From positions 124,001-188,000 of the forward strand of contig NZ_CP015363.1 in NCBI RefSeq assembly GCF_002078355.1: a DNA stretch of 64,000 nt, written 5' to 3'. The stretch is from Ferroplasma acidiphilum. Lineage in GTDB: Archaea; Thermoplasmatota; Thermoplasmata; Thermoplasmatales; Thermoplasmataceae. Below are positions 31,920 to 46,318 of this stretch, piece by piece; position 1 is the stretch's first letter; each line of letters opens with the position of its first letter. The position numbers were made by a program, and so were the translations under genes. Under the pieces are notes generated by a model that saw only the letters and a list, made by a program, of their open reading frames with translations, was not told the DNA's origin and ran no database searches.

Positions 31920-32625
31920 ATACATAATTACTACACGGCCTGGAATTAAATTCAAGCCTGTAAAAACTCAATGCATAGATATATTGAATATACCTCTCAC
32001 TTCCATCCAGGCACGCAATTTTGATGAAAATATAGGTAAGGAATTAATTCAGGCAAAGCCAGGGGTAATAGTGCTTACAAGTTCATTTGGAGCCATGGAA
32101 TTTTTTAAAAATTATTATAAATTTACAGTAAATCCGGATTTTGTAGCAATAGGGGAAAAAACTGCGGGCATAATAAGAAAATATGCCGGAAATGTAAAGG
32201 TTCCAACAGTAAAAGATTCATACGGGGTACTGGACCTGCTTTCAGGGTATGAAAATACAGATATTGCCTTATTCAGAAGCAATGAATCCAATAATATTAT
32301 CAGGGAATCTTTAACCAGAAGGGGTGTAAAATACCATGAATATCATGTATACGATGTAATACAGCTGGAAAATACAGGATTAAAGGACTCATTTCTTTCA
32401 TCCAGTTGCAATGGAATATTAGTTACATCATCTATGGAGGCGAGGATATTTAGAGAAACTATTGGAACCTATACCGGTGGCAAAAAAATTTATTCAATTG
32501 GGAAAATAACCACTTCCACACTGGAATCACTTGGATATAAGGTATCATTAACAGGAAATTCTGATTTCGAAGCCATGATAGAAAAAATAGACAAGGAAAA
32601 CTGCAATAGCGGGGAATGGATTTGA
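31906..32625 (+). CDS. hemD: Uroporphyrinogen-III synthase
   Basis: The 239-residue protein closes and inverts the linear tetrapyrrole. Sequence conservation in this family is low; visible signs are the TSSFGAMEFFKNYY and AIGEKTA runs, and SNESNNIIRESLTRRGVKY. Its place after hemC with overlap supports the call. The ATG at 31906 is preferred to a GTG at 31900. The last six codons lie in the complement of the initiator tRNA gene. Confidence 0.85.
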   Translation: MDTSKYIITTRPGIKFKPVKTQCIDILNIPLTSIQARNFDENIGKELIQAKPGVIVLTSSFGAMEFFKNYYKFTVNPDFVAIGEKTAGIIRKYAGNVKVPTVKDSYGVLDLLSGYENTDIALFRSNESNNIIRESLTRRGVKYHEYHVYDVIQLENTGLKDSFLSSSCNGILVTSSMEARIFRETIGTYTGGKKIYSIGKITTSTLESLGYKVSLTGNSDFEAMIEKIDKENCNSGEWI

Positions 32626-32681
32626 ACCATTGATCTACGGGTTATGAGCCCGTCGGGATCTCCTGACTACCCTACCCCGCT
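32607..32681 (-). tRNA. Initiator tRNA-Met (CAT)
   Basis: The minus strand folds into a cloverleaf: acceptor AGCGGGG with CCCCGCT, anticodon stem ACGGG with CCCGT around CTCATAA, and T-arm AATGG-TTCAAAT-CCATT. The A1-T72 pair and the three G-C pairs next to the anticodon loop are hallmarks of archaeal initiator tRNA. No CCA is encoded. A TATA-like GTTTATATTC on the minus strand at 32703-32712 is placed for start at the 5' end. Confidence 0.92.
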
Positions 32682-32722: not shown

Positions 32723-33280
32723 TCAACTCCCGCCGAAGCTTTCTTCCATCTTCCTGAACTTTAATTCTCCGACATTTTTTTCAAGATAAGAGTATACGGT
32801 TTTGTGCTTTCTTCCCTGCAAAATCATGTTTACCGCTTCCCTTGCATATTGAATTGATATAAAATCACCAAGTATTGAAACAGTATTTCCACTTATAGAA
32901 ATATATGTTCCTGTTAATTCTTCAATTATCTCCCTCGTATGCCCCTCTTTTCCTATTAACCTCCCACGTATTTCTTTTATCCTTTTGGCATCTTTGTTTA
33001 CAAATTCCTTAATGGATATTACTATGAGTTGAACACTGTCATCAAATAAGAGCATGGCTTTTTCCGGATTGAAACCCCTTGCTATAGCCTGAACAACGTT
33101 TAATGCCATCAGGGCCTTCAATGGATCATTTTTCTGGTATACGGTAACTATTGCATTTTCTGAATCAATATCCAGTTTGGCTTTGCCTTCTTCTTCTATT
33201 TTAGCTTTTACTGTCCCTTCCTTTCCTATAAGCACCCCTATTCTGGCAAAGGGGACTTTAATATTTCCTATTTCAAGCAT
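32723..33280 (-). CDS. KH-domain ribosome maturation protein (Pno1/Dim2 family)
   Basis: The 185-residue protein has two KH domains with IGKEGTVKAKIEEEG and LIGKEGHTREIIEELTG loops, followed by ARGFNPEKAMLLF between them. Archaeal Dim2/Pno1 binds the 3' end of 16S rRNA and helps late small-subunit maturation with RIO1. I chose the ATG at 33280, which follows GGTGAT inside the RIO1 end; a frame start at 33298 is less likely. Confidence 0.9.
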   Translation of the reverse strand: MLEIGNIKVPFARIGVLIGKEGTVKAKIEEEGKAKLDIDSENAIVTVYQKNDPLKALMALNVVQAIARGFNPEKAMLLFDDSVQLIVISIKEFVNKDAKRIKEIRGRLIGKEGHTREIIEELTGTYISISGNTVSILGDFISIQYAREAVNMILQGRKHKTVYSYLEKNVGELKFRKMEESFGGS

Positions 33281-34046
33281 GTGTATCACCTTTAACATAA
33301 CTATAGAGTTCTATAGGGTCACATTTAACCCCTTTTTTAATAAAAAATGTTGATATATTTTTTATATCCCTTTTCAGGAACTCCAGTGCCATAGGATGTT
33401 TTGTGGACACCGATTGCCCAACATCTATGATATATGGGTTATTTCTGTAATATAATATATTATATTCGCTGAGATCAGCATGGACTATGCCGGCTTTATT
33501 ATACATCTTCCATATAGCCTCCCTCAATTTAACATAAATTTCATCAAAACCTCCATTGAGATCTTTAATTTGCAATGCTGGCCCTTTAGAACTCCCAAGA
33601 TAGGACATTAGAAGTATATTTTTATAGAATCCATAGGGCTTAGGTGCATGGACTCCAGAATCCCTGAGGCTTTGAAGATTTGTAAACTCCTTTTGTGCCC
33701 ACACAAATACAAGATTTGACCGGTTAATTTTTTCCTTATCAAACCGGTAATCACCTTTTATATATTCCATGGTATTGGAAAATTTTAATGTAGACATTTT
33801 ATAAATTTTAAGCGCCCTGGTAATCCCATTTCTTAACTTAACATTGAAGATCAGTGATTCCTTGCCGCTGGAAATTGGAAAATCAATGTAATCTATATCA
33901 TATTTTTTAATAACTTCATAAATAGCATTTAACGTTCTCCTGTCAAATACAAGGCCGTATGTTTTCCTATCAAGATTGAGCCTGTTGGAAAATTCATCCG
34001 ATTCAATTAATTGCTTCAGTGCACTTTTATCGTTCATTGAATACAT
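33273..34046 (-). CDS. RIO1-type serine protein kinase
   Basis: The 257-residue atypical kinase/ATPase acts in release of late pre-40S factors. It has the ATP-binding SSGKESLIFNV loop, Lys in ALKIYKMST, the catalytic HADLSEYNILYY loop and metal-binding IIDVGQSV. The flexible loop after KIYKMSTLKF is typical of RIO1. It overlaps aIF1A and pno1, so the three form one operon. Confidence 0.93.
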   Translation of the reverse strand: MYSMNDKSALKQLIESDEFSNRLNLDRKTYGLVFDRRTLNAIYEVIKKYDIDYIDFPISSGKESLIFNVKLRNGITRALKIYKMSTLKFSNTMEYIKGDYRFDKEKINRSNLVFVWAQKEFTNLQSLRDSGVHAPKPYGFYKNILLMSYLGSSKGPALQIKDLNGGFDEIYVKLREAIWKMYNKAGIVHADLSEYNILYYRNNPYIIDVGQSVSTKHPMALEFLKRDIKNISTFFIKKGVKCDPIELYSYVKGDTHA

Positions 34047-34359
34047 CTATAATCTCTGGCAACATCCTGTTACGGCTAAGGTATAATGCCTGGGTCCTTG
34101 TGTACCTGTAAATTATATCTCCCTTTTCATCCTGGAAATCCCATGGTTTCACAATAACAAGGTCGCCTTCCCTTATCCACATCCTTTTTTTCATTTTGCC
34201 AGGTATTCTGCAATTTCTTGTTGAGCCATCCTCACACATAACGGTAAGGCGTGATGCACCGGATAATTTTTCAACTATTCCGTATATTTCTCCCTTTCTT
34301 TTATTGGGTGTAATAACCCTCGTAATATTTTCTCCATTATCTTCTATTTTATGATCCAT
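34027..34359 (-). CDS. Translation initiation factor aIF1A
   Basis: The 110-residue protein has the OB-fold sequence GEIYGIVEKLSGASRLTVMCEDGSTRNCRIPGKMKKRMWIREGDLVIV of eIF1A. It binds the A site and with aIF1 and aIF2 sets up initiation. It leads the aIF1A-RIO1-Pno1 operon. A TATA-like stretch near 34389-34398 would give a very short leader. Confidence 0.95.
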   Translation of the reverse strand: MDHKIEDNGENITRVITPNKRKGEIYGIVEKLSGASRLTVMCEDGSTRNCRIPGKMKKRMWIREGDLVIVKPWDFQDEKGDIIYRYTRTQALYLSRNRMLPEIIDVFNER

Positions 34360-36599: not shown

Positions 36600-37031
36600 T
36601 TATCTCTGCTTTATTATTACATTTTTTATTTTAAAGTACCTGGAAATAGCATCCCTCATTAATTTTATGTTTCTGCTATCTTTGCCGATAGCTTTACCTA
36701 TATTTTCCGGAGCTATTCCTACAAAAATGTTTGTTATATTGTCCTTCCATATGAGATTAATCTCATTTACCCCATACCTGTAAAATAAATTCTTTGTAAA
36801 TGTTAGAAGGTCAGGGGAAAACTCTGCCATGACTATCCTTTTGTTGATCTTTGCTTTTAAATCTGCAATTATATTTTCATGTTTTTTAAAAATATCTGCC
36901 AGTTTGTGCTCACCTACAACAAAGAGGACCATCTCTTCGTTTTCAAGGCATTCAAATACGTTAGTTCTAGTATAGCTTTCAAATAATTTTATAAATCCTA
37001 TTGTCTGATTATCCAGTGTTATTTCATTCAT
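36600..37031 (-). CDS. nusA: NusA-like KH-domain transcription factor
   Basis: The 143-residue protein matches the archaeal NusA: two KH domains with the VVGEHKLADIFKKHENIIADLKAKI and VGIAPENIGKAIGKDSRNIKLMRDAI runs. It is thought to bind RNA and act in elongation or termination. It ends the polymerase operon. The usual archaeal neighbours eL30 and uS12 are not present beside it. Confidence 0.88.
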   Translation of the reverse strand: MNEITLDNQTIGFIKLFESYTRTNVFECLENEEMVLFVVGEHKLADIFKKHENIIADLKAKINKRIVMAEFSPDLLTFTKNLFYRYGVNEINLIWKDNITNIFVGIAPENIGKAIGKDSRNIKLMRDAISRYFKIKNVIIKQR

Positions 37032-37040
37032 GGTATCCCT

Positions 37041-41214
<4,174 letters not shown>

Positions 41215-41218
<4 letters not shown>

Positions 41219-44200
41219 TTCATATCACCCAGCTCCAATCTCATTACAATTCCCATTGAACTTAATTCATCCCTCATCAATTTAAATGCATAACTTGTTT
41301 CTATGGGATAAATATTGCCTGTATTGCCACATGCAGGACACCGCAATGTCCCTTTCCTGAAATCATAAATAGCTATATGCCCGCAGGTAGGGTTTCCACA
41401 AACATAGAGTATTGTACCATCACTCTGATCCAGCAAACGGTCTTTTATAACCATAGACGCACCATGGGCTATCAGAGTATCCCTTTCCATTTCACCAAAT
41501 CTCAGACCTCCCTGCCTTGATCTGCCTTCTGTTGGCTGCCTGGTAAGTATCTGTACAGGGCCTCTAGACCTTGCATGGAACTTGCTGGCTACCATATGGT
41601 GGAGTTTCTGGTAATAAATTACGCCCATAAATATATCCACTTCAAATTTCTTTCCGGTAATTCCATCATACATGACTTCGTTTCCGGATTCACGGAACCC
41701 ATATTTCTTTAACTGTTCCCTGAGGCTTCTCTCAGGTTCCCCATCAAATATTGTGGAATCTATATTCTCACCGCTCATTGTAGAAACCTTTGCACCCATC
41801 ATTTCAAGCACATGTCCCAGAGTCATCCTCGAAGGAACTGAATGTGGATTGAAAAGCAGGTCGGGTATAATTCCATCCTCTGTGAATGGCATGTCTTCCT
41901 GGGCGGCTACATAACCTATAACTCCTTTCTGCCCATGCCTTGAAGCAAATTTGTCACCTGGCTGGGGTATCCTGTCGCTTCTTACTTTAACTTTAATTAT
42001 CCTGCTGTTGCTTTCAGAAACTGTAAGGAAAACATTGTCAACATATCCGGATTCAGTAGGCCTTACTGTAACAGAAGATTCCCTCCTTCTCAGTGGGCCA
42101 AGTTTGTCGGCATTTTCTTCCTCCAGAAATCTCGGTGGTGATGTTTTTCCAACAAGCACATCTGAACCTTCTACTTTAGATTCGGGGAATATTATTCCAT
42201 TTTCATCAAGATTTTTATAATATTCTTCAGCTCTGGCCCCAAGCACATCGTGGCTTGGAATTTCAAATTTATCTTCCTGCCCTCCTGGATATCTTCTTTC
42301 CTCTGCTGTATATGTCCTGAAGAATGAACTCCTGCCCAGCCCTCTTTCTATAGATGCTTTGTTCATTATAATTGCATCCTGCATGTTGTACCCATGGTAG
42401 GATACTATTGCTACAACAAAATTCTGGCCTGCAGGCTTCCTCCTGTATTTAATGAAATCCATAACCTTGGTTGTAACAAGTGGAATCTGCGGGTAGTGCA
42501 ATAAATGCCCCCTGGTATCTGTCCTTATCCTGTAATTTGCCTGTGGCAACCCTATGGACTGCTTAATCATTGCAGAAGCTATTGTTATTCTTGGTGAGGA
42601 GTTATGTTCCGGATATGGAATAAGGGAAGCAACAACTCCAAGGATCATTGAAGCATCTATTTCACAGTGTGTATGGTCCATGGATAGGTTATTTGTACCC
42701 TTAAAGTGTGCATGGCATTCATCGCACTCAAGAGTAACATCACTATTTCCTGGATTTATCCATGTGACATTATCCCTGTAAAGAACTTTGCCACAATCCG
42801 GGCAATTATCGGGAAATTCGAATGGAAATACTGATATATATGCGTTTTCCTCTTCTTCAGCATCAAGCCATTCTATGGCTCCACTGGAAATAAGGTCATT
42901 TACTGTATATTCGCCCATTCTCAATTTCTCGAGCATTTCCTCATTCATTACTGTTTTTCCTTCATTTACGACAAATAATGGCCTTCTTAGCCTTCCGCGG
43001 TCGCAGTTAATAATAACCTCATTTGTGTTGGAATCGTATTTAACATTTACCTCGTTTGATAATTTTCCCGACCTTCTTAAATTTCTTATTGTGTCGGTGA
43101 GTATTGCCGGGTCATTATGGTACCCTATGAAATCCCCATTCAGGTAAATACGCCCGGAAGCTTCTTCCTTTGTTACTTCGTGTATGTCCATGTTTTGCAA
43201 TTCTTCCATTACAATATCAGGATCTATTCCCTGGGTTACATTAATTATAAGTGATGCATTTTTAACCAGGCCACAGTTCTGACCTTCCGGGGTCTCGTTA
43301 GGGCAAATTCTCCCCCACTGTGTCGGGTGGAGATCTCTGGCCTCAAAATGCGGCTGCGATCTTGTCAGTGGAGAAATAATCCTTCTCAGATGGCTCAATG
43401 TGGACATATTGGATGTCCTGTCCAGCAGCTGGGACACGCCTGTCCTTCCACCTATCCAGTTTCCTGTTGCCATGGAATGCAGTACTTTCTGTGTGAGCAG
43501 ATCCTGCCTGACTGCAGGCCTCAGCCTGATACCTCTTTTTTTATTGTAAGTTTTTTCCAGCTGGTATTTCAGATCTTTCATAACTGACTGGAATGCATTT
43601 CTGAAAAGTTCATCCAGAAGGTCGCCGGAAAGTTTGATTCTCTTATTTGCATAATGGTCTTTATCGTCAACATGACGCATTCCTAAATTAAGCTCAAGAA
43701 GTGATCTTGCCATTCTTCCAAGGTAAATAGCCTTCTTTAACCTGTCTGAAACATCATCTCCAAGGTGTGGAAGCAAAGCACGATCCAGCATCTGTGTGAT
43801 CTTCTTATCCCTGAACTCTTTGGCCTGCCCTGCAGCAAACCTCTTTTTCAGGTAAGACAGTGCATCTTCATTATTGTTAATTCCATTGGGTGGCAGAATT
43901 TTAAGATTTCTTGAATCCTCTATATTGGCATAGATTAATGGATCCATTCTCGGATCGGTATAAATTGCTTCATGGATATCAACATCCTTGTCGATTCCCA
44001 GCGCCTTCATCAGTATTACAAGAGGTATTGTTCCAGCTACAGTGGGTATAGAAACGTTAATTATACCATCGCTTCCTTTTTCCATAGATATCAATGCCCT
44101 GAATCCGCTCTTCTGGGAGAAAATCTTTGCAACTTCTACCCTTGAATCATATTTTTCTTCGTACTCAACAAGTATCTTATTTGGCGCAAGGTCTTCCAGT

Positions 44201-44802
44201 GAAACTATTACCCTCTCTGATCCGCCAATGATAAAATATCCTCCAGGGTCTGTGGGATCCTCGTCTACATATCTCAGTTTGTTCTCCCTTGTTTCATCTA
44301 TAGGGCCATTGTTTTTTTCAATGTAAAGGTCCAGATTCTGTTCTGACAATGTACATATTTTTGATCTTACCATTACCGGTATTTCCCCTATTTTAATGGT
44401 ATTTGCATCTCTTTCTATCCCATCTTCCACTATACGCAGCCGCAACATTATGGGTGCCATATAGTTAAGGTCCCTGAGCCTGGCTTCCTGTGGTGTTATC
44501 TGGTTTGTAGCACCGGAAGCTTCCTTGATTTCAGGTTTGTCTACCCATATCGTTGGATCTCCCGTAGCCTTGCCATTCTGCCTTTCCCTGCCAAAATAAA
44601 TTTTTATGTCCTTGCCCTTTGTTTTTGAAGGGTCAAGATCTATTACTCCAGGTGTTGCATCATCGGATATCTTGGTCTCATCCACTATCTGTTGCATTAT
44701 ATTATCTGGATTGTTCTTTGAAGCATAAAAATAATTCATGGAATCAATCTGATAATTAACTACACTCTCTGATTTGAAAAACGCATCTAAAATAGGATTC
44801 AT
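41215..44802 (-). CDS. rpoB: DNA-directed RNA polymerase subunit B (unsplit)
   Basis: The 1195-residue second-largest subunit is in one piece. This is the form in Thermoplasmatales, crenarchaea and some others; many methanogens and haloarchaea split it into B' and B''. It has the [13 protein letters not shown] motif, the wall and hybrid-binding regions and two zinc sites (CPDCGKVL with CDECH, and CGNPTCGH with CPACG). It is the second gene of the operon. Confidence 0.97.
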
Positions 44803-44803
44803 C

Positions 44804-45064
44804 TTATATCACACTCTTAACAATAACTCTATAATACTCATAATAACCTGCAGTGGGGCTTTTGCGAATAATTTTAACTACCCGGCCCGGCTCAAGTGTT
44901 CCGTGAATTTCCTCCAGTGCCTTAATTGTAGGGTCATTAATGCTAATTTTCGGCAGGTTCTCTTTTGTCACATTAAGCTTTGTTAAAACGCTTTCCTCAT
45001 CTTCCACAGGCACCAGATGGTGTTCTGGCACTATTTCGTGCTCAAGCACATTGAACTTACTCAT
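44804..45064 (-). CDS. rpoH: DNA-directed RNA polymerase subunit H
   Basis: The 86-residue protein matches archaeal RpoH/eukaryotic Rpb5 C-terminal domain: [39 protein letters not shown] and the [23 protein letters not shown] end. It is the first polymerase gene. AGGTGA lies before its ATG, and the tRNA-Lys gene ends only 13 bases upstream on the same strand. Confidence 0.95.
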
Positions 45065-45077
45065 ATTTTCACCTAAA

Positions 45078-45151
45078 CGGGTCCGAAGGGGTTTGAACCC
45101 TTGACCGCCTGGTTAAAAGCCAGACGCTCTACCTAGCTGAGCTACGGACCC
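45078..45151 (-). tRNA. tRNA-Lys (TTT)
   Basis: The minus strand forms GGGTCCG with CGGACCC as acceptor and TCTGG-CTTTTAA-CCAGG as anticodon arm (anticodon TTT). The T-arm is AAGGG-TTCAAAC-CCCTT and the D-arm GCTC-AGCTAGGTA-GAGC. No CCA is encoded and no intron is seen. It stands directly in front of rpoH on the same strand. Confidence 0.95.
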
Positions 45152-45165
45152 ACAATATGTAGTCA

Positions 45166-45190
45166 GCTATATACATTTGAATGATATAAC
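45166..45190 (-). promoter_or_regulatory. TATA-like elements before tRNA-Lys
   Basis: The minus strand shows GTTATATCAT (45181-45190) and TGTATATAGC (45166-45175) before the tRNA. The upstream one has the right spacing to start a few bases before the tRNA 5' end. No other TATA box is visible between this place and rpoH, so it may serve the tRNA and the polymerase operon together. Confidence 0.5.
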
Positions 45191-45301
45191 TTTTTTTGTA
45201 TAATGATATTACTAAATAGTATTTTAACGTTTTACTTTTTTTGCATTTTAGTACGGAAAATTTCATGAAAAATTTAATATCTCTGCCTATTATATTCTAT
45301 A

Positions 45302-46318
45302 ATGAAAGTTAACATAAACGGCGTGTCAAAGGCAATTCTTGCAGTATGGTTTGAAGATAACCAGGTAAAACTGATAGATCAGAGAAAAATTCCGGAAACA
45401 ATTGAGATATATTCTGCAAAAAATAGTGATGATATTTACTATGCAATTAAAAATATGGTCGTCCGCGGGGCACCAGCAATAGGTGTTACTGCAGCATATG
45501 GGTTGGCTATGGCTTCTAAAAATAAGGAAAATATGGAGGAAGCTGTTAAGGTCATATCATCATCAAGGCCCACAGCTTATGATCTCTTCAAGGCAATTGA
45601 TTTTATGAAGGCAAATAATTTTTCAGAATCAGCAGCAAAGAGGTACGCCCTTGAAATAACAGAAAGATCCAGAAAGATAGGGGAATATGGAAATACGCTT
45701 ATACAGGCTAATGACCATATACTCACACATTGCAATGCAGGGGCACTTGCGGTGGTTGACTGGGGAACTGCCCTAGCACCTATGAGGATGGCGCATGATG
45801 CTGGCAAAAAATTTTTTGTCTATGTTGATGAAACCAGGCCCAGATTGCAGGGTGCGAAACTTACTGCATGGGAACTCCAGCAGGAAGGCATAGATTATTC
45901 AATAATAGCAGATAATGCTGCAGGGCATTTCATGAAGAATAAAGACATAAACCTTGCAATAGTAGGTGCTGACAGGATAGCGGCGAATGGTGATTTTGCC
46001 AACAAGATTGGAACCTATGAAAAGGCAGTTCTTGCAAAGGTGAACAATATACCCTTTTACGTTGCTGCACCCGGAAGCACCTTTGATTTTTCCCTGAAAA
46101 ACGGTGATGGTATACCCATAGAGGAAAGGGATGAAAGCGAAGTATTGACTGTCAACAATTCAAGGATCGGGCCGGTTGAAGGGCATGCCAGGAATCCTGC
46201 ATTTGATGTTACACCAAATGAATATGTAACCGCATTCATAACGGAATATGGCATATTCAAGCCTGGGGAACTTAAAAAATTGTATAGTTTAATTCACGAA
46301 GATCTCTTTATGAGGTAA
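45302..46318 (+). CDS. mtnA: S-methyl-5-thioribose-1-phosphate isomerase-like protein
   Basis: The 338-residue protein belongs to the eIF2B-like isomerases and matches MtnA: DQRKIPETIEIY, MVVRGAPAIGVTAAYG, a catalytic Cys in THCNAGALAVVDWGTAL and catalytic Asp in VGADRIAANGDFANKIGT. MtnA acts in methionine salvage on methylthioribose-1-phosphate, and related enzymes use 5-deoxyribose-1-phosphate. It converges with trpS, overlapping its end by 25 bases. Confidence 0.9.
   Translation: MKVNINGVSKAILAVWFEDNQVKLIDQRKIPETIEIYSAKNSDDIYYAIKNMVVRGAPAIGVTAAYGLAMASKNKENMEEAVKVISSSRPTAYDLFKAIDFMKANNFSESAAKRYALEITERSRKIGEYGNTLIQANDHILTHCNAGALAVVDWGTALAPMRMAHDAGKKFFVYVDETRPRLQGAKLTAWELQQEGIDYSIIADNAAGHFMKNKDINLAIVGADRIAANGDFANKIGTYEKAVLAKVNNIPFYVAAPGSTFDFSLKNGDGIPIEERDESEVLTVNNSRIGPVEGHARNPAFDVTPNEYVTAFITEYGIFKPGELKKLYSLIHEDLFMR

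Follow-up and report, generated by a model that had tools for sequence, protein, structure and literature searches.

A tRNA-Lys gene, paired with rpoH across most sampled Thermoplasmatota families, probably leads the core RNA polymerase transcript of Ferroplasma acidiphilum

How does the message for the core RNA polymerase of Ferroplasma acidiphilum obtain its 5' end, when a tRNA gene stands directly before the first polymerase gene? The window, that is, the whole stretch of 64,000 nucleotides analysed here, raises this question through the following features, listed in the direction of transcription.

45206..45223, minus strand: AATACTATTTAGTAATAT, with the dyad TACTA-TT-TAGTA, near-invariant in 10 genomes
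45185..45194, minus strand: AAAAGTTATA, BRE/TATA box of the predicted promoter before tRNA-Lys, from motif score and conservation in relatives
45078..45151, minus strand: tRNA-Lys(UUU), 74 nt (ARAGORN; Rfam RF00005, 69.6 bits; acceptor GGGTCCG/CGGACCC)
45065..45077, minus strand: spacer TTTAGGTGAAAAT, 13 nt, read from the sequence
45069..45074, minus strand: Shine-Dalgarno sequence AGGTGA, 4 nt 5' of the rpoH ATG, read from the sequence
44804..45064, minus strand: rpoH (Rpo5), 86 aa (PF01191, E=2.7e-26; RpoH chains in the PDB, E down to 1.5e-17)
41215..44802, minus strand: open reading frame that we take, from sequence knowledge, to be rpoB, starting 1 nt past the rpoH stop
38555..41218, minus strand: open reading frame, on the same basis presumably rpoA' (NADFDGDEM motif), overlapping the end of rpoB by 4 nt
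37041..38558, minus strand: open reading frame, presumably rpoA'', again from sequence knowledge
36600..37031, minus strand: open reading frame taken likewise to be a nusA-like KH-domain gene, the last of the operon

ARAGORN gives tRNA-Lys(ttt) a span of 45077-45152 on the minus strand, and acceptor pairing together with the discriminator G indicates that the mature tRNA runs from 45151 to 45078; CCA is not encoded in the gene. The original prediction had placed the tRNA at 45078-45151 on the rpoH strand, with 13 bases (45077..45065) before the rpoH start and a Shine-Dalgarno sequence (45074..45069) within this gap, and all of this was confirmed. The tRNA lies immediately 5' of the rpoH reading frame, and rpoH, rpoB, rpoA' and rpoA'' follow one another on one strand with minimal gaps, as in the archaeal rpoH-B-A'-A'' operon. 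The further wording of the prediction, that tRNA processing would create the 5' end for all polymerase genes, was too wide, as the operon holds only these four genes and the nusA-like gene.

Where would transcription of this unit begin? A TATA motif trained on the sequences upstream of 42 further tRNAs in the same genome (consensus AAAAGTTATA) scores 10.99 at about -42 of tRNA-Lys, which ranks at the 95th percentile among the training sequences and is comparable to the best tRNA promoters of the genome. This position is 8 nt farther upstream than the genome's tRNA median of -34, implying a slightly longer leader, and we infer that transcription would start near 45163. The motif scan found no comparable TATA element in the tRNA, the spacer and 40 nt, where the best score was 1.69; at the level of motifs, the early view that TATA-like elements occur only before the tRNA was borne out, the box at 45194..45185 being the sole strong one. 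The longest T-run in the 45 nt past tRNA-Lys is 2, the minimum among the 44 tRNAs of the genome, a value shared with Thr(GGU) and with Gln(UUG), which heads a tRNA-led unit of its own, and a scan of these 45 nt found no terminator-like T-run between tRNA-Lys and rpoH. Across 10 close relatives, nine of the genus and one of another genus, the BRE/TATA box, the leader around TATAGCTGACTACAT, the tRNA and an invariant GGTGA in the spacer are kept, and the flank drifts. The dyad AATACTATTTAGTAATAT sits between tRNA-Lys and a divergent gene at 45302. As a genome-wide operator it was rejected, being present in a single exact copy with no second good one.

We located rpoH in 60 of the 61 genomes of the order searched and read the DNA upstream of it. 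The layout that was to be sought in other Thermoplasmatales is present there: tRNA-Lys(UUU) precedes rpoH at 50 loci (families f1, f2, f4, f5 and f6). The spacer measures 11-27 nt at 49 of them, which leaves no room for a separate TATA promoter, the exception being one genome (L013) with a 70-nt spacer and a TATA-like sequence. At most loci of the order a TATA-like element is found ~35-44 nt 5' of tRNA-Lys within differing surrounding sequence, and Shine-Dalgarno matches of at least 6 nt occur in 24 of the 50 spacers, against ~2.3 expected from shuffled spacers. Three further loci, two of f4 and one of f1, are uninformative or negative; a contig end cuts the f1 locus and one of the f4 loci, the latter inside a tRNA-like 3' end. 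Family f3 has tRNA-Lys at none of its nine rpoH loci. In these tRNA-less genomes (L005, L009, L029, L045, L052, L054-L057) a conserved leader occurs instead ~120 nt before rpoH. It contains (C)AATTCCAGAGG and, complementary to it, a segment resembling CTCTGGAA, together with a short reading frame that ends near the rpoH start.

The narrow spacers bear directly on the possibility that tRNA-Lys and rpoH are transcribed separately, with an rpoH promoter inside the tRNA or the spacer. Internal promoters do exist in some archaeal operons, and the long spacers of certain families could accommodate one before rpoH, but the tight spacing within the order, the lack of a TATA-like element in tRNA or spacer and the absence of a T-run after tRNA-Lys make separate transcription very improbable.

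How far does the pairing extend? A same-strand tRNA-Lys gene lies upstream of rpoH in 46 of the 51 Thermoplasmatota families sampled, those outside the order being represented mostly by one or two genomes each. ARAGORN alone had limited the pairing to the order and the methanogenic family f11; this reading was rejected, as intron-bearing tRNA-Lys genes were found upstream of rpoH elsewhere. In many families of the class (L101, L105, L119, L129, L135 and others) tRNA-Lys carries up to three introns, in the D-loop, anticodon loop and T-loop, which is why ARAGORN missed many of these genes; we found them by acceptor pairing together with D-arm, anticodon and T-loop motifs. With this motif-and-pairing finder no tRNA-Lys-rpoH pairing was detected in families f3, f14, f33, f36 and f52, so the pairing can be dispensed with. 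Outside the order the spacers extend to 50-400 nt, and a simple scan found no clear TATA element in GC-rich families; a second promoter is therefore possible there. Two families (f42, f48) have an rpoH with an N-terminal extension, the tRNA lying ~50 nt before the extended start. In f11 (L107-L111, L140), 110-145 nt separate tRNA-Lys from rpoH and contain a conserved motif, TTCATGAGCGATC(N)GATCAAGTATGAGG, that may form a hairpin; a search of the f3 and f11 leaders against Rfam gave nothing above the gathering score except tRNA. The idea that the phylum matches are in fact halophiles or classical methanogens was rejected, since mcrA occurs only in f11 and f24, consistent with Thermoplasmatota.

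By our own arithmetic, any same-strand tRNA would end at most 27 nt before a given gene with p ~3e-4, a figure that rests on 44 tRNAs in 1,826,943 bp, and the phylum-wide recurrence of the pairing rules out chance. Outside the phylum, a same-strand tRNA-Lys-like gene lies upstream of rpoH at 5 of 80 loci (one in Thaumarchaeota, one in Bathyarchaeota and three in DPANN), in a biased sample that is mostly Thermococci and Bathyarchaeota with most methanogens and halophiles left out. Our estimate of the chance expectation for a tRNA-Lys gene of either of two isoacceptors within 300 nt is ~0.02 in 80 genomes. These cases may reflect either an old linkage or repeated gain.

We consider it highly probable that tRNA-Lys(UUU) heads a single rpoH-rpoB-rpoA'-rpoA''-nusA transcript that is processed by RNase P and RNase Z. 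The original prediction had raised a shared transcript conditionally; from the position of the promoter, the lack of a terminator, the Shine-Dalgarno sequence in the short spacers and the recurrence across families, we strongly infer that tRNA-Lys and rpoH are co-transcribed. The apparently shared promoter and the recurrence in nearly all sampled families of the phylum further suggest that the polymerase message probably acquires its start through excision of the tRNA. This second part of the prediction would follow from the shared transcript, and genes for RNase P RNA (223 bits) and RNase Z (334 bits) are present in the genome.

A single archaeal TATA promoter 5' of tRNA-Lys would give one RNA, from which RNase P would remove a short leader in front of the tRNA, while RNase Z would cleave past the discriminator base. 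Since the 3' product of RNase Z cleavage carries a 5' phosphate, the leader of the polymerase mRNA would be monophosphorylated and 13 nt long, with the expected sequence TTTAGGTGAAAAT, which includes the Shine-Dalgarno sequence. Leaderless mRNAs are widely used by Thermoplasma (PMC7531240), and for this reason the Shine-Dalgarno sequence fits an internal cistron. In a folded model of the precursor this sequence is mostly unpaired, with unpaired probabilities of 0.52-0.95. The unprocessed RNA might thus be translated too, and any block before cleavage would be steric rather than exerted through pairing.

Does processing then govern polymerase supply? Such regulation, which the original prediction drew from a shared transcript, is speculative. 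It is reasonably likely that the two genes are co-transcribed and processed without regulatory meaning, as two essential genes that share a promoter would be costly to separate. Operon inertia accounts for the persistence of the pair, and the mostly open Shine-Dalgarno sequence of the modelled unprocessed RNA points the same way. A control pair in the same window, tRNA-His and a methyltransferase gene, lends further weight to this reading by being kept at 19 of 23 f1 loci without an obvious functional link; it is found at 0 of 7 loci outside f1, indicating that tRNA neighbourhoods are fairly stable inside this family but not beyond it. The tRNA-Lys-rpoH pair, unlike the control, persists across families, despite the gain of introns in the tRNA, and this counts against a reading without regulatory meaning.

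We regard it as rather doubtful that the tRNA or its maturation sets the translation or stability of the polymerase mRNA. Such a coupling might operate, for example, through the 5'-monophosphate end or through a steric block of the Shine-Dalgarno sequence, which lies 3 nt from the tRNA. Close spacing within the order and the depth of conservation argue for it, while loose spacing outside the order and loss of the link in five families argue against it. A precedent is offered by metY-nusA-infB of Escherichia coli, where, according to the title of Regnier 1989 given in PMC6511841, release of the tRNA by RNase III initiates decay of the downstream mRNA. We think it unlikely that, across Thermoplasmatota, the core polymerase mRNA has inherited tRNA-Lys(UUU) as a 5' leader whose maturation or availability sets polymerase synthesis; if this were true, transcription capacity would be coupled to the tRNA pool across the phylum.

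Other tRNA genes of this genome also adjoin protein-coding genes. tRNA-Gln(UUG) forms a second conserved unit with the gene behind it, which encodes a ubiquitin-fold protein of SAMP2/ThiS type (G000:C1:1804739-1805005; L087, L241). The protein matches SAMP2 just under the cut-off (PF21965, E=8.7e-6) and ThiS above it (PF02597). Spacers are ~1-12 nt in most f1 genomes examined (loci L242-L268), and the 1-2 nt of Ferroplasma-type genomes would make the SAMP2-like mRNA practically leaderless after RNase Z cleavage; the tRNA is missing at two loci of the genus Thermoplasma and lies farther off in a few others. Gln(UUG) and Lys(UUU) tRNAs generally carry 2-thiolated wobble uridines. Proteins of the SAMP2 type function in wobble-uridine 2-thiolation (PMC4048286, PMC5372717), and the coincidence of a SAMP2-like gene behind the gene of a thiolated tRNA is suggestive, not proof; the words 'tRNA gene' do not occur in a comparative study of ubiquitin-like genes in archaea (PMC2948915). 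tRNA-Ser(UGA) is followed after 11 nt by a reading frame of ~208 aa (L086:1201-1919), and the two adjoin in all eight same-genus genomes that have the frame (L301-L308), which has no Pfam match. A tRNA-led mRNA of tRNA-Glu(CUC) and a USP gene was rejected, the tRNA being near the USP gene at only 1 of 22 loci, and for the reading frames next to the Ala(GGC) and Ala(UGC) tRNAs no support for their start codons was found. Within the window, tRNA-Met(cat) (32607-32681) lies ~40 nt 3' of a same-strand cluster (32723-34359) that resembles aIF1A, a Rio-type kinase and a KH-domain protein.

mRNAs headed by a tRNA are known from a few scattered cases. The arrangement described here joins an RNA of translation to the core enzyme of transcription and has persisted in almost an entire phylum of archaea, a depth of conservation that lifts its interest beyond the layout of a single genome. 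It offers a system in which the influence of tRNA processing on mRNA 5' ends can be tested in archaea, where the phosphate state of the 5' end is believed to influence mRNA decay. Families without the tRNA provide natural comparisons.

How does this arrangement relate to known systems? We found no report of it in the literature searched, older papers being outside its coverage; the polymerase genes of Thermoplasma acidophilum were reportedly described by Klenk et al. in 1992, in an account that may show this tRNA. In E. coli, the tRNAs of thrU-tyrU-glyT-thrT-tufB are co-transcribed with a downstream essential protein gene. Unlike tRNA-Lys-rpoH, that operon is bacterial, with four tRNAs and encoded CCA. 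In mitochondrial tRNA punctuation, cuts by RNase P and RNase Z at tRNAs make mRNA ends, but this system is organellar and genome-wide rather than confined to one operon. Background on it is given in PMC5474008. The rpoHB2B1A1A2 genes of Methanococcus maripaludis have the same core order, although the available part of that report does not mention a tRNA leader (PMC10450193). The metY-nusA-infB operon (PMC6511841) has a tRNA as its first gene too, excised from a transcript of transcription and translation factors, but it is bacterial, involves an initiator tRNA and release by RNase III, and has several promoters, one of them at the 3' side of metY. In Thermococcus kodakarensis, tRNA-Lys (TKt3) lies within the 159-nt 5'-UTR of the mRNA for the DEAD-box helicase TK0306 (PMC4247193). 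There too a tRNA-Lys heads an archaeal mRNA, with apparent co-transcription inferred from mapped start sites, yet the gene is another one, the leader is longer and phylum-wide conservation is not described in the accessible part of the source (PMC4247193). Given the TKt3 and metY cases, this kind of arrangement is already known, and tRNA-led mRNAs as such are not new; what is new for tRNA-Lys-rpoH is the depth of its conservation.
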